Below are positions 55,558-61,099 of a DNA stretch of 64,000 nt, piece after piece (within the stretch, counting starts at the first letter, position 1; every line of letters starts with the position of its first letter). Both the position numbers and the translations under genes were made by a program. Origin of the DNA: an uncultured Geobacter sp. (lineage in GTDB: Bacteria > Desulfobacterota > Desulfuromonadia > Geobacterales > CAIOGM01). The notes beneath the pieces are model-generated. The model was not told the DNA's origin and made no database searches. It was given only the letters and a program-made list of their open reading frames with translations. The stretch lies in NCBI GenBank assembly GCA_903902855.1, contig CAIUWK010000011.1, positions 1-64,000 of the forward strand, given 5' to 3'.

Positions 55558-55670
55558 GCCGCTGTCACGGTTCTCGCAAACCGTGGCACGGCTCATCTCT
55601 CTCTGAATATCTTCTCCACGTACCTACCGGGTTGCCGGGCGCTCCATCCGCCCTGACCCCGGCTTTTTTT
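55557..55670 (+). ncRNA. Structured 5' leader ending in an intrinsic terminator
   Basis: Stem AGCCG..CACGGTT/AACCGTG..CGGCT, then CCGGG..GGGCG/CGCCC..CCCGG followed by T7 at 55664-55670, all before ATG 55731. Confidence 0.5.
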
Positions 55671-55730
55671 GTGTCACATCAGGACGCGCGCTCAGCGGCG
55701 CTTCATTTTCTCAAGAGGCAGGGAGGGTTC

Positions 55731-57263
55731 ATGAGTTTTAAGAAAACAATGGTCTATGCGTGGAACTTCATCAGCATCATCGGGTTTATCCTCATCCTGG
55801 TCGGCGGGGCTCTCATAGCCACCTTCCAGGCTATCGAGGTGATGCACGAGATTCACAACCCGTACATCGGTATCCTCATTTACTTCATCTTTCCCGGCAT
55901 CCTGCTCACCGGTCTGGCCCTGGTTCCAGTGGGGATATTCCTCACCCGAAACCGGATGCGCCGGGATAACCCCAACGGAATACCGCAATATCCGCTCATT
56001 GACCTGAACGACCCTAAAAAACGAAAACTTGCCATCTTCTTCACTCTGGCCACCGTTATCTTCGCTGTTCTCATCACCCTTTCCGGTATCAAGGGGTATG
56101 AATTCACCGAATCGGTGACCTTCTGCGGCAAGCTCTGTCATGTGGCCATGGAGCCGGAGTACGTGGCTTGGCAGCACTCCCCCCACGCCAAGGTACGCTG
56201 CGTGGAGTGTCACGTGGGCCCCGGCGCCCAGTGGTACGTCAAGGCCAAGATATCCGGAACCCGCCAGATGTTTGCGGTCCTCCTGAATACCTTTGAGCGC
56301 CCCATCTCAACTCCCGTACAGAACCTGCGTCCCTCCAGCGATACCTGCGAGGGGTGCCACTGGCCCGACAAGTTCTTCTCGCCCCGTCTCAAAAAATTCT
56401 ATCACTACGCCCCCAACGAAAAGAACACTCCCCGGGAGACCGATCTGGTTATCTTCATCAACGGCACCCCGGAGACACCTCTGGAAGGGGGAGTTCACTG
56501 GCATATCGGCCAGGAGGTCTCCTATGTTCCCCGGGACAAGAGTCGTCAGGATATCCCCTACGTTACCGTGAAAGGGAAGGACGGGAAACTTCGCGAATAC
56601 GCTACCTCGGAGAAGCCGCTCACCACGGACGAGATCGCCAAGGGTGACAAGCGGATCATGGACTGCATCGACTGCCATAACCGGCCGACCCATATCTACA
56701 AGTCGCCGGGCCAGGCCATCGACGCCGACATGCATGCGGGGAGCATCGATGCCTCACTCCCCTACTTCAAGAAGGTCTCCGTGGGGCTCCTGACCGAGAC
56801 TACCTACAAGACCACCGAAGAGGCCATGGCGGCCATCAACAAGGGGATCACCGACTACTACGCCAAAAGCTATCCCGACGTGGCCAAGCAGAAGGTCGCC
56901 CAGATTCAGAAGGCCATATCGGTCGTACAGGATATCTACAAGAAGAACTTCTTCCCCAGGATGAAGGTAGCGTGGAATACTTATCCCAACAACATCGGGC
57001 ATTTCAACTTCCCCGGCTGTTTCCGCTGTCACGACAACAAGCATAAGTCCGCGGACGGTCATGTGATCCGTAAGGATTGCAATCTCTGCCACAAGGTCAT
57101 GCGGGAGATCCAGGAAAATATTCCGGCGGGAACCGTCGTGCAGACCTTCGTTCATCCCGTGGATATCGGCGACGAGATCAACAAGACCAACTGCAGTGAC
57201 TGTCACCAGCCCCCCAAGGTGAAGCACGAAGAAGAGAAGGAAAAAGCTCCGGAAAAGAAGTAG
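55731..57263 (+). CDS. NapC/NirT-type inner-membrane multiheme cytochrome (ImcH-like)
   Basis: Three N-terminal TM segments; six CXXCH plus one CX3CH (CGKLCH). Confidence 0.85.
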   Translation: MSFKKTMVYAWNFISIIGFILILVGGALIATFQAIEVMHEIHNPYIGILIYFIFPGILLTGLALVPVGIFLTRNRMRRDNPNGIPQYPLIDLNDPKKRKLAIFFTLATVIFAVLITLSGIKGYEFTESVTFCGKLCHVAMEPEYVAWQHSPHAKVRCVECHVGPGAQWYVKAKISGTRQMFAVLLNTFERPISTPVQNLRPSSDTCEGCHWPDKFFSPRLKKFYHYAPNEKNTPRETDLVIFINGTPETPLEGGVHWHIGQEVSYVPRDKSRQDIPYVTVKGKDGKLREYATSEKPLTTDEIAKGDKRIMDCIDCHNRPTHIYKSPGQAIDADMHAGSIDASLPYFKKVSVGLLTETTYKTTEEAMAAINKGITDYYAKSYPDVAKQKVAQIQKAISVVQDIYKKNFFPRMKVAWNTYPNNIGHFNFPGCFRCHDNKHKSADGHVIRKDCNLCHKVMREIQENIPAGTVVQTFVHPVDIGDEINKTNCSDCHQPPKVKHEEEKEKAPEKK

Positions 57264-57957: not shown

Positions 57958-58977
57958 TCACAACCGGCGATCGGCGGCTTCGGCGAACTTGCGCAGATTT
58001 TCCATCATGGCTGCGAATTTCGCAGGTTTCAGCGACTGGGGACCGTCGGAGGTGGCCCGTTCCGGGTCCGGGTGGACTTCGATCATGAGGCCGTCGGCCC
58101 CGGCAGCCACTGCGGCATAGGCCATGGGAGCGACATAGCGGTAGTGGCCGGTGCCGTGGGAAGGATCGGCGATAACCGGCAGATGGGTCATTCCCCGCAG
58201 CACCGGGATGGCGGAAAGGTCCAGGGTGTTCCGCGTGGCGGTTTCGAAGGTCCTGATCCCCCGTTCACAGAGGATGACCTGCTGATTCCCCTCGGAAAGG
58301 ATGTACTCGGCGCTCATGAGGAATTCCTGGATACTCATGGCCATGCCGCGTTTAAGAAGCACCGGCCGTTTGAGCTGTCCCACCTTCTTGAGCAGGGCGA
58401 AGTTCTGGGAGTTGCGGGCACCGATCTGGAGGATATCGGAATATTCGGCCACCAGATCCGCCGTCTCCGGGTTGATGACTTCGGTCACTATGGGGAGACC
58501 GGTGAGCTCCCGCGCCTTGGCCAGGAGCTTCAGCCCTTCCTCTTCCATCCCCTGGAAGGAGTAGGGGGAGGTGCGGGGTTTGAAGGCGCCTCCCCGGAGG
58601 ATCTGGGCTCCGGCGGCTTTCACCGCCGTGGCGCATTCCAGGATCTGCGTCTCACTTTCCACCGAGCAGGGGCCTGCCATGACGATGATCTCGTCGCCGC
58701 CGATGGTGACCGTATCATTCAAGCGGATGAGGGTCGTCTCCCGTTTCACCTCACGTGACGCCAGTTTATACGGTTTGAGGATCGGGACCACATTTTCCAC
58801 CCCGTGCAGTGACTCAAGGGAGTGGAGGACCAGTTTGCCCCGTTCGTCGCCGATGGCGCCGATGACGTCCCGGGTCGTGCCGTGAATCAGATGGGGCTGG
58901 TATCCCAGTTCCTTGATCCTCTTCAGCACCTCATCCCGATCGTTTTGTGCCGCTCCTGCCTTCATGACGATAATCAT
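57958..58977 (-). CDS. aroF: 3-deoxy-7-phosphoheptulonate (DAHP) synthase, AroF/TM0343 type
   Basis: MIIVMKAGA ferredoxin-like N-terminus; [30 protein letters not shown]...[19 protein letters not shown]. Confidence 0.96.
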
Positions 58978-59008
58978 TGTGTCTCCCCCGTTGTCACCGC
59001 AACCGAAA

Positions 59009-59098
59009 AACGGCCGGAAGGTATGATCCCCCCGGCCGTTGCTGCTGAAACTGAAAAGCCACGGGGGGACACCTACTCTTCTGTCCACCCGCGGCTTT
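59009..59098 (-). promoter_or_regulatory. Attenuator-like tandem hairpins in the DAHP synthase leader
   Basis: Hairpin A 59055-59098 (AAAGCCGCGGGUGGACA/UGUCCCCCCGUGGCUUU) and hairpin B 59009-59040 (AACGGCCGG/CCGGCCGUU + U-run). Confidence 0.8.
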
Positions 59099-59119
59099 GG
59101 TCTTGTTTGATGTCGGCTG

Positions 59120-59218
59120 TTATCCTCGATCCAGACCTCTCCCCCGGGCAGACGGGCTAAAATAAAAGCCGTACCAAAAGGAAGATGACGGGAAGGTGGA
59201 AGCGCCGTAGGTACTCAT
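59120..59218 (-). CDS. Aromatic leader peptide (regulatory uORF)
   Basis: Manual translation [39 protein letters not shown] run before the hairpins; in-frame alternative ATG at 59227. Confidence 0.85.
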
Positions 59219-59487
59219 GGCGAACATCTTTGCCGATTTGACCTGATTCTGTCAAGAAGAAAGTTAAGCGTTCTGTCGCACCAGGGTTCACAGGGCTCAT
59301 GTGAGACCCGGTGCATTGCCGTAACAGGCAGGTAACATGTTGAATTTTATTGATAATGTTAAGCCTGGGCTAACGACGTTATGAACTTTTTTGTGGGCAA
59401 ACAGCGGAGGTTGTGGTATGAATGGCTCACCTGTGAAATCCATCTGGAGAGTGCGTTACGGCGGATCGCCGGACGCTGGAGGAGAGT

Positions 59488-60105
59488 ATGTTCGGCCTGA
59501 TTCCCAAGGATGAAAAATTCTTTCAGATGTTTCGCGAGATGTCCGCCAATATCGTCGAGGGTGCCCTGCTGCTGAAGGATATGCTGGATAATTTTGTCGA
59601 CCCGGTAACCAGTCAGCGCAAGATCAAGGAGGTCGAGCACAAGGGAGATTCCCAGACTCACGAGATCATCAAAAAGCTCAACAAGAGCTTCATCACCCCC
59701 TTCGATAGGGAAGACATTTATGCCCTTTCCGGCGCGCTGGACGACATCCTCGACCTCATCGACGCCTCGGCGCAGCGGTTCGTCATGTACAATGTGGAAA
59801 AGCCCACACCTGAGGCCAAGGAGTTGGGCTTCCTTATTCTGAGAGGGTGCCAGGCGATTCAGAAGGCGGTTTCCCACCTGGGGGGGAAATTCGAGCAGAT
59901 AGCCGAACAGTGCGTGGAGGTGAACGCCCTGGAGAATGAGGCCGACCGGGTCTGTCGCGAGGCGATCAGCCGTCTGTTCGACGAAGAGAAGGATCCTATT
60001 CAGCTGATCAAGTGGAAGGAAATCTACGAAACATTGGAAAAAGCCACGGACAAGTGCGAAGACGCGGCGAACATCATGGAAAGTGTGGTCGTAAAAAATG
60101 CCTGA
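59488..60105 (+). CDS. DUF47/PhoU-like phosphate transport regulator
   Basis: MFGLIPKDEKFFQMFREMSANIVEGALLLKDMLDN; precedes the Pit transporter. Confidence 0.93.
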   Translation: MFGLIPKDEKFFQMFREMSANIVEGALLLKDMLDNFVDPVTSQRKIKEVEHKGDSQTHEIIKKLNKSFITPFDREDIYALSGALDDILDLIDASAQRFVMYNVEKPTPEAKELGFLILRGCQAIQKAVSHLGGKFEQIAEQCVEVNALENEADRVCREAISRLFDEEKDPIQLIKWKEIYETLEKATDKCEDAANIMESVVVKNA

Positions 60106-61099
60106 TGCCACACTCCTCCTGCTGATTTTCGTGATTGCGGCGGCCTTGGTCTTCGACTACGTCAACGGCTTCCACGATACGGCCAATGCCATAGCCACCA
60201 GTGTCTCCACCCGTGCTCTGTCGGTGAAGACGGCAATCATCATGGCGGCGGTCCTCAATTTTGCCGGAGCCATGGTTTCCACCAAGGTCGCCACCACCAT
60301 CGGTAACGGCATCGTGGATCCTCACCAGGTGACTCAGATGGTGGTCTTGGCCGGAGTGCTGGGGGCCATCATCTGGAACCTCATCACCTGGTACTTCGGC
60401 CTCCCCTCCTCTTCGTCCCATGCCATCATCGGCGGACTCATCGGGGCGGTCATCGCCCATGCCGGTTTATCGGAATTTCACCTGTCCGGATTGAAAAAGA
60501 TCATCCTGGCTCTCATCGTTTCCCCGATCCTCGGGGCCAGCATGGGCTTTCTCTTCATGGTCATCTTTCTCTGGACCCTGCGCAATCGGTCCCCCTTCGG
60601 CGTTAACAAGGGGTTCCGACGGTGCCAGATCTTCTCCGCCGGTTTCATGGCTTTTTCCCACGGCACGGCAGACGCCCAGAAGTCCATGGGGGTCATCACC
60701 ATGGCGCTTCTGAGCTACGGGGCGATTCCTGCCTTCGTGGTTCCCACGTGGGTCAAGCTCGCCTGCGCGGTGGCCATGGCGCTGGGAACTGCCGCTGGGG
60801 GGTGGCGCATCATCAAGACAGTGGGGCGTGATTTCGTCAAGCTGCAACCGGTGAACGGTTTTTCCGTGGATGCAGCCTCTGCCGTCGTCATTCTTGGGGC
60901 AGCCTCCCTGGGGTTGCCCACCAGCACCACCCATGTGGTCACGTCGGCGATTCTGGGGGTCGGCCTCTCCAAACGGATGTCGGCGGTGAACTGGAGTATT
61001 GCCGGTCGTATCGTCATTGCCTGGGTGCTCACCATTCCCGCCTCCGGCATCGTCTCCTTTCTCACCTACGACATCCTGACTCCCTTTCTGGGGAAATAG
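60098..61099 (+). CDS. pit: Pit-family inorganic phosphate transporter
   Basis: FDYVNGFHDTANAIATSVSTRALS, PSSSSHAIIGGLIGA, GLPTSTTHVVTSAILGVG. Confidence 0.95.
   Translation: MPDATLLLLIFVIAAALVFDYVNGFHDTANAIATSVSTRALSVKTAIIMAAVLNFAGAMVSTKVATTIGNGIVDPHQVTQMVVLAGVLGAIIWNLITWYFGLPSSSSHAIIGGLIGAVIAHAGLSEFHLSGLKKIILALIVSPILGASMGFLFMVIFLWTLRNRSPFGVNKGFRRCQIFSAGFMAFSHGTADAQKSMGVITMALLSYGAIPAFVVPTWVKLACAVAMALGTAAGGWRIIKTVGRDFVKLQPVNGFSVDAASAVVILGAASLGLPTSTTHVVTSAILGVGLSKRMSAVNWSIAGRIVIAWVLTIPASGIVSFLTYDILTPFLGK

Follow-up and report, generated by a model that had tools for sequence, protein, structure and literature searches.

The DAHP synthase gene aroF of an uncultured Geobacter sp. raises the question of whether the stretch in front of it senses the supply of aromatic amino acids and, if so, through which RNA structures. 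The gene lies on the minus strand at 57958–58977 of the window, as we call the whole 64,000-nucleotide stretch of DNA that was analysed, and is preceded by the Shine-Dalgarno region CGGGGGAG (58983–58990). It encodes a DAHP synthase of type I-beta with a ferredoxin-like domain (TIGR01361, 402.6 bits against a cut-off of 267.75; PF18152 was also matched). A multihaem cytochrome gene with a NapC/NirT-type N-terminal region lies on the plus strand at 55632–57263. The original prediction had described an aromatic leader peptide and two hairpins, A and B, upstream of aroF, and had proposed that aromatic aminoacyl-tRNA supply controls the gene by sequestration of its ribosome-binding site. Comparison with relatives strongly supports the attenuation by aromatic tRNA and the pairing of the leader with hairpin A, and lends no support to the sequestration wiring. 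We propose that the locus very probably acts on DAHP synthase by ribosome-mediated transcription attenuation and responds when any one of Phe, Trp and Tyr runs short.

The short open reading frame (ORF) at 59120–59218 on the minus strand, with the run of codons F-W-Y-G-F-Y-F at 59159–59179, was confirmed to the base. Close relatives were collected through a search for relatives of the enzyme, and 77 of the 80 loci fetched carry a recognisable leader ORF at an equivalent distance from the gene; the core F-W-[YFC]-G-F-Y-F is present in nearly all of them. It is this conservation across relatives, and not the composition of one ORF, that lifts the observation beyond chance. Changes in the codons are largely synonymous: among 78 loci, the changes inferred for the Phe codon F0 number 1, 2 and 15 at its first, second and third positions, respectively. 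F0 and the single Trp codon (W1) are each retained in 76 of these loci and F6 in 75. By comparison, the Phe and Trp codons follow the pattern of a translated ORF. The leader ORF is real, a short reading frame that is under coding selection and in which codons for the end products of the pathway cluster. Inside the order of the window's genome, the peptide core F-W-x-G-F-Y-F-x-P-S-A, glycine included, is well conserved.

A predicted promoter directly precedes this ORF on the minus strand. Its −35 hexamer, TTGACA (59250–59255), begins 37 nt ahead of the leader AUG, and its predicted −10 element, AAAGAT (59231–59226), is a weak match in the window's genome. The distance from TTGAC(A) to the leader AUG is 35–38 nt in 61 loci, 60 of which show no Shine-Dalgarno-like motif before the AUG; in one further locus, the motif stands at 38 nt, behind a nearer chance match. 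This promoter geometry would place the transcription start at the leader AUG or 1–2 nt before it, and the spacing together with the missing Shine-Dalgarno motif, which the window's own leader also lacks, suggests that the leader peptide is probably leaderless. The predicted start thus lies upstream of 59120, as the original prediction demanded. An alternative, longer in-frame start at 59227 is present and overlaps the predicted −10 region. The 35–38 nt spacing was not found in more distant relatives (L074, L077–L084, L086, L089 and others), which mostly carry a Shine-Dalgarno-like stretch. On its other side, the promoter is flanked by divergent neighbours of aroF (59488–61099, plus strand), which encode a DUF47/PhoU-like protein and a PiT-type phosphate transporter.

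Both hairpins described at the outset are present on the minus strand, A at 59055–59098 and B at 59009–59040, and their stems are conserved in relatives. Hairpin A, a stable structure between the leader ORF and the gene, has a predicted energy of −27.6 kcal/mol (shuffle z −5.6) and in relatives takes the form AAAGCCGGGG...CCCCGGCUUUUUU; at least 6 T occur among the 9 nt after it in 73 of 78 relatives, with a mean of 6.6. Hairpin B (−24.4 kcal/mol, z −6.7) is found in nearly all close relatives and has a U tail in 44 of 78 loci. Since hairpin A is U-tailed in 73 loci versus 44 for hairpin B, comparison identifies A as the conserved intrinsic terminator, whereas the original prediction had assigned this role to B. 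In the window's genome, the U run after hairpin A is short (UUUU, 59057–59054, UUUUCAGUUU), so that A may terminate only weakly here. It is B that a simple terminator scan picks up, which, given the short U run of A, may be why B was taken for the terminator.

The helix that would oppose this terminator is formed by a strand inside the leader ORF, GUCUGCCC (59146–59153, minus strand), whose partner, GGGUGGAC/GGGCAGAC, belongs to the 5′ arm and the inner portion of hairpin A. Its 3′ strand, GGGUGGAC (59083–59090, minus strand), is shared with the 5′ arm and the inner stem of A. Predicted folds of this and related leaders add an inner extension of GGUCU (59133–59137) with AGACC (59099–59103), both on the minus strand. 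The competing pairings named in the original prediction are present in the sequence, and the one between GUCUGCCCG (59153–59145) and CGGGUGGAC (59091–59083) covaries in relatives. With the intervening sequence, the GUCUGCCCG:CGGGUGGAC hairpin folds to −27.9 kcal/mol; in the window's genome, antiterminator and terminator (−27.9 versus −27.6 kcal/mol) are thus equal in energy, as expected of a switch. Several predicted folds also contain a small local hairpin, CGGC...GCCG, as a candidate protector.

An untargeted covariation scan of the 78 leaders with a tree-based null yielded one significant pair, located in hairpin B. Targeted tests were therefore used, and the support for the antiterminator, whose core is GC-rich with several invariant pairs, rests on these. 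In 47 diverse sequences, 98.1% of the helix cells are paired, as opposed to 36–48% in registers slid by 1–3. Compensatory changes occur at three of the eight helix pairs (U-A to C-G twice, G-C to A-U once), and double-change cells number 14 versus 4.6 in shuffles (0/500); relatedness among the sequences inflates such shuffle tests. Across 78 sequences, each leader binds its own partner strand better than one swapped between species (mean −21.8 versus −19.8 kcal/mol; 0/20000 permutations). The conservation of the partner strand is best explained by its pairing with the leader, because part of this strand lies outside the outer stem of A. Covariation and spacing thus both point to an antiterminator that excludes hairpin A, and the position of its strands suggests how a ribosome could expose or cover it.

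Based on these features, we propose the following sequence of events. RNA polymerase would start at or beside the leader AUG and a ribosome would translate the leader. When charged tRNA-Phe, tRNA-Trp or tRNA-Tyr is scarce, the ribosome would stall on F-W-Y-G-F-Y-F. A ribosome covers about 12–13 nt beyond its A site; halted at the earliest codons of the aromatic run, it does not reach as far as GUCUGCCC. This strand, which lies about 5 nt downstream of the run, would hence be left free to pair with the emerging GGGUGGAC, which would block terminator A and allow aroF to be transcribed. With plentiful aromatic amino acids, the ribosome would proceed toward the stop codon and cover GUCUGCCC, so that hairpin A forms and transcription ends. 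The arrangement of antiterminator and terminator would then be the ordinary one, with the leader:A helix acting as antiterminator of the conserved terminator A, rather than the departure from the usual scheme that had been suggested. The direction of control would be as expected, since stalling would keep the antiterminator strand available and the gene switched on; sequestration of the ribosome-binding site is not needed to obtain it.

The linkage of this leader to DAHP synthase holds in every order locus that was checked. A covariance model (R1) spanning the leader through hairpin A matches 133 of the 141 genomes of the order, in all 29 genera and normally with one copy each, and 101 of the 103 genomes with completeness of 90% or more and contamination of 5% or less. 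The R1 search was used to fetch 30 order loci, and all of these, as well as the window's own, lead into DAHP synthase, a gene of the pathway of the sensed amino acids. The R1 search found no further copy in the window's own genome. Among the eight order genomes without a match, one contains an intact close relative of aroF directly behind another gene, with neither leader nor attenuator, an apparent loss; in the others, aroF either runs off a contig edge at its 5′ end or is missing. Several genomes encode a second DAHP synthase paralogue (about 53% identical), and no aromatic leader precedes the copies that were read.

Beyond the order, R1 matches 92 of 396 genomes in an even sample of the phylum, nine of which belong to the window's order. 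We read 61 loci from outside the order, naming representatives of the genes behind them with NCBIfam and the rest by similarity to those. These genes encode a DAHP synthase of the same type in 36 loci, phenylacetate-CoA ligase (PaaK) in 10, a branched-chain-type ABC transporter substrate-binding protein in six, ADTH synthase in five, and a type I-alpha DAHP synthase and an aminotransferase in one each; two of the 61 loci are probably false matches. By sequence comparison, homologous switches thus precede two DAHP synthase families, ADTH synthase, PaaK and a transporter gene, and the targets are mostly genes of the aromatic pathway. Phe and Tyr are abundant in their leaders, and Trp is present in some and absent from others. 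In the 61 loci, 97.0% of the helix is paired and five of the eight pairs are double-changed; double-change cells number 27 versus 5.5 in shuffles, in an alignment that was fitted to the model and leans towards it. A test independent of the alignment gave a mean longest helix of 10.0 versus 7.0 for shuffled leaders. The antiterminator strand is read in all three frames outside the order, as S-A, V-C or L-P in 28, 22 and 10 loci, and mostly starts 5–6 nt after the last aromatic codon. Because the reading frame varies while the spacing is kept, the strand is maintained as RNA: comparison shows conservation of the strand and of its spacing from the sensor codons, but not of the encoded peptide.

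Several of these target genes merit separate mention. The ten PaaK loci have Phe-rich leaders, and the attenuator in this position suggests that PaaK in these bacteria serves the supply of aromatic amino acids and not only degradation. ADTH synthase, behind an aromatic leader and attenuator in five loci, catalyses the opening step of the alternative dehydroquinate route, and in one of them (L133) it is followed by 3-dehydroquinate synthase II. The Phe/Tyr-rich leader and attenuator upstream of the six ABC transporter substrate-binding protein genes indicate that this branched-chain-type protein may transport aromatic amino acids or related acids. Eight of 148 genomes match, three of them strongly, in a sample from the group of a genome labelled Nitrospira. 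Four loci labelled Thermodesulfovibrionales, Nitrospira or Nitrospiraceae (L070, L085, L087 and L088) carry the order-type leader and an aroF of 76–79% identity; transfer, misbinned contigs and shared or wider descent are candidate explanations for the Nitrospira-labelled occurrences.

The same comparisons bear on three other readings of the locus. In the wiring of the original prediction, a form of translational attenuation, formation of the antiterminator would free the C-rich 3′ arm of hairpin A to bind the aroF Shine-Dalgarno region and block translation. The window's genome taken alone would agree with it, as GUGUCCCCCCG can pair there with CGGGGGAGACAC at −24.1 kcal/mol and a fold with the antiterminator forced uses this GUGUCCCCCCG:CGGGGGAGACAC pairing. 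However, the complement is not kept even within the genus, where three congeners reach −11.0, −5.6 and −7.6 kcal/mol, and over the 78 loci it barely exceeds chance (−7.29 versus −6.93, p 0.023). No conserved anti-Shine-Dalgarno strand emerges from these values, and the U-tailed terminator that hairpin A forms in 73 of 78 loci runs contrary to a translational mechanism. Sequestration of the aroF ribosome-binding site was rejected on these grounds, and we give this reading hardly any credence. It is also very unlikely that the nascent leader peptide itself stalls the ribosome through the exit tunnel, as in TnaC, with tRNA shortage playing no part. The conservation of the peptide core within the order, glycine included, is what such an arrest peptide would display, but its P-S-A residues are accounted for by the RNA pairing, and across the phylum aromatic richness alone is kept, the later residues changing with the reading frame over a conserved RNA strand.

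A further reading makes hairpin B the working terminator and reduces hairpin A and the leader to a decoy or pause structure. Hairpin B has the better U run in the window's genome (UUUUU) and is the hairpin reported by the terminator scan, and the one pair that reached significance in the untargeted covariation scan lies in its helix. Nevertheless, a U tail is missing from B in 34 of the 78 loci, whereas one follows A in 73, and several loci outside the order have about 55–80 nt between the end of A and the gene, where B would hardly fit; we consider this reading very unlikely. Within the attenuator centred on terminator A, hairpin B probably serves as a further terminator or as an mRNA structure, a second termination step being its likeliest role. 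As had been predicted, it is able to pair with the 3′ arm of A, in the predicted fold through its 5′ arm. Once the antiterminator has formed, the freed 3′ arm of A might pair in this way and open B too, so that one event would open both hairpins. Many close relatives have in addition an outer helix between the strand just before A and the strand just before the aroF Shine-Dalgarno region (CCACAAA/UUUGUGG, CCGAAA/UUUCGG, CCGGAA/UUCCGG and others). As alignment columns are offset by one between sequence types, this helix was tested per sequence, and own strands gave −7.6 versus −5.5 kcal/mol for swapped ones; it covaries in close relatives, as in the CCACAAA/UUUGUGG form adjoining the Shine-Dalgarno region, and is weak in the window's genome. 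As a tentative extension, which we think possible though not the likelier case, the leaderless leader for all three aromatics would set terminator A as well as a second gate, made of hairpin B and the outer helix, through which a second termination step or aroF translation would be adjusted in close relatives.

The attenuator offers a concrete, testable control point of aromatic synthesis for a phylum of environmentally important anaerobes, absent from Rfam and from the open papers searched. No family of Rfam 15 reached its gathering score in the window, with chance-level matches only at E values up to 5. We found no report of this element in the open-access literature, a search that leaves subscription journals, and thus a possible earlier description, outside its scope. 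Because the switch occurs before first-step enzymes that are not homologous, before phenylacetate-CoA ligase and before a transporter gene, an aromatic regulon becomes definable by sequence alone, and a function is suggested for transporters and aminotransferases behind it. The three-frame reading of a strand at fixed spacing is moreover a clean demonstration from nature that selection acts on the RNA strand and on its distance from the sensor codons, and not on the peptide.

Like the T-box and amino-acid riboswitch leaders of other bacteria, the aroF leader would control a gene of an amino-acid pathway. It shares with the trp attenuators of Actinobacteria a conserved complementary triple of antiterminator, shared and terminator strands behind the sensor codons (PMC1262725), whereas those systems have UGG repeats only, act on the trp operon and differ in sequence. 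A precedent for the leaderless peptide is provided by trpL of S. meliloti, where the attenuator RNA begins with the trpL ATG (PMC7298713); in contrast to the aroF leader, trpL senses Trp only, controls trpE(G) and belongs to another phylum. With the trp, pheA and his attenuators of E. coli, the aroF switch has in common a leader peptide rich in the sensed amino acid and mutually exclusive antiterminator and terminator structures, of which a stalled ribosome favours the former (PMC7298713). Unlike these systems, it has no clear protector hairpin beyond the small local CGGC/GCCG one, its antiterminator strand is part of the leader ORF and follows immediately on the sensor codons, and it would control the initial step shared by the three aromatic pathways, with codons for all three amino acids.
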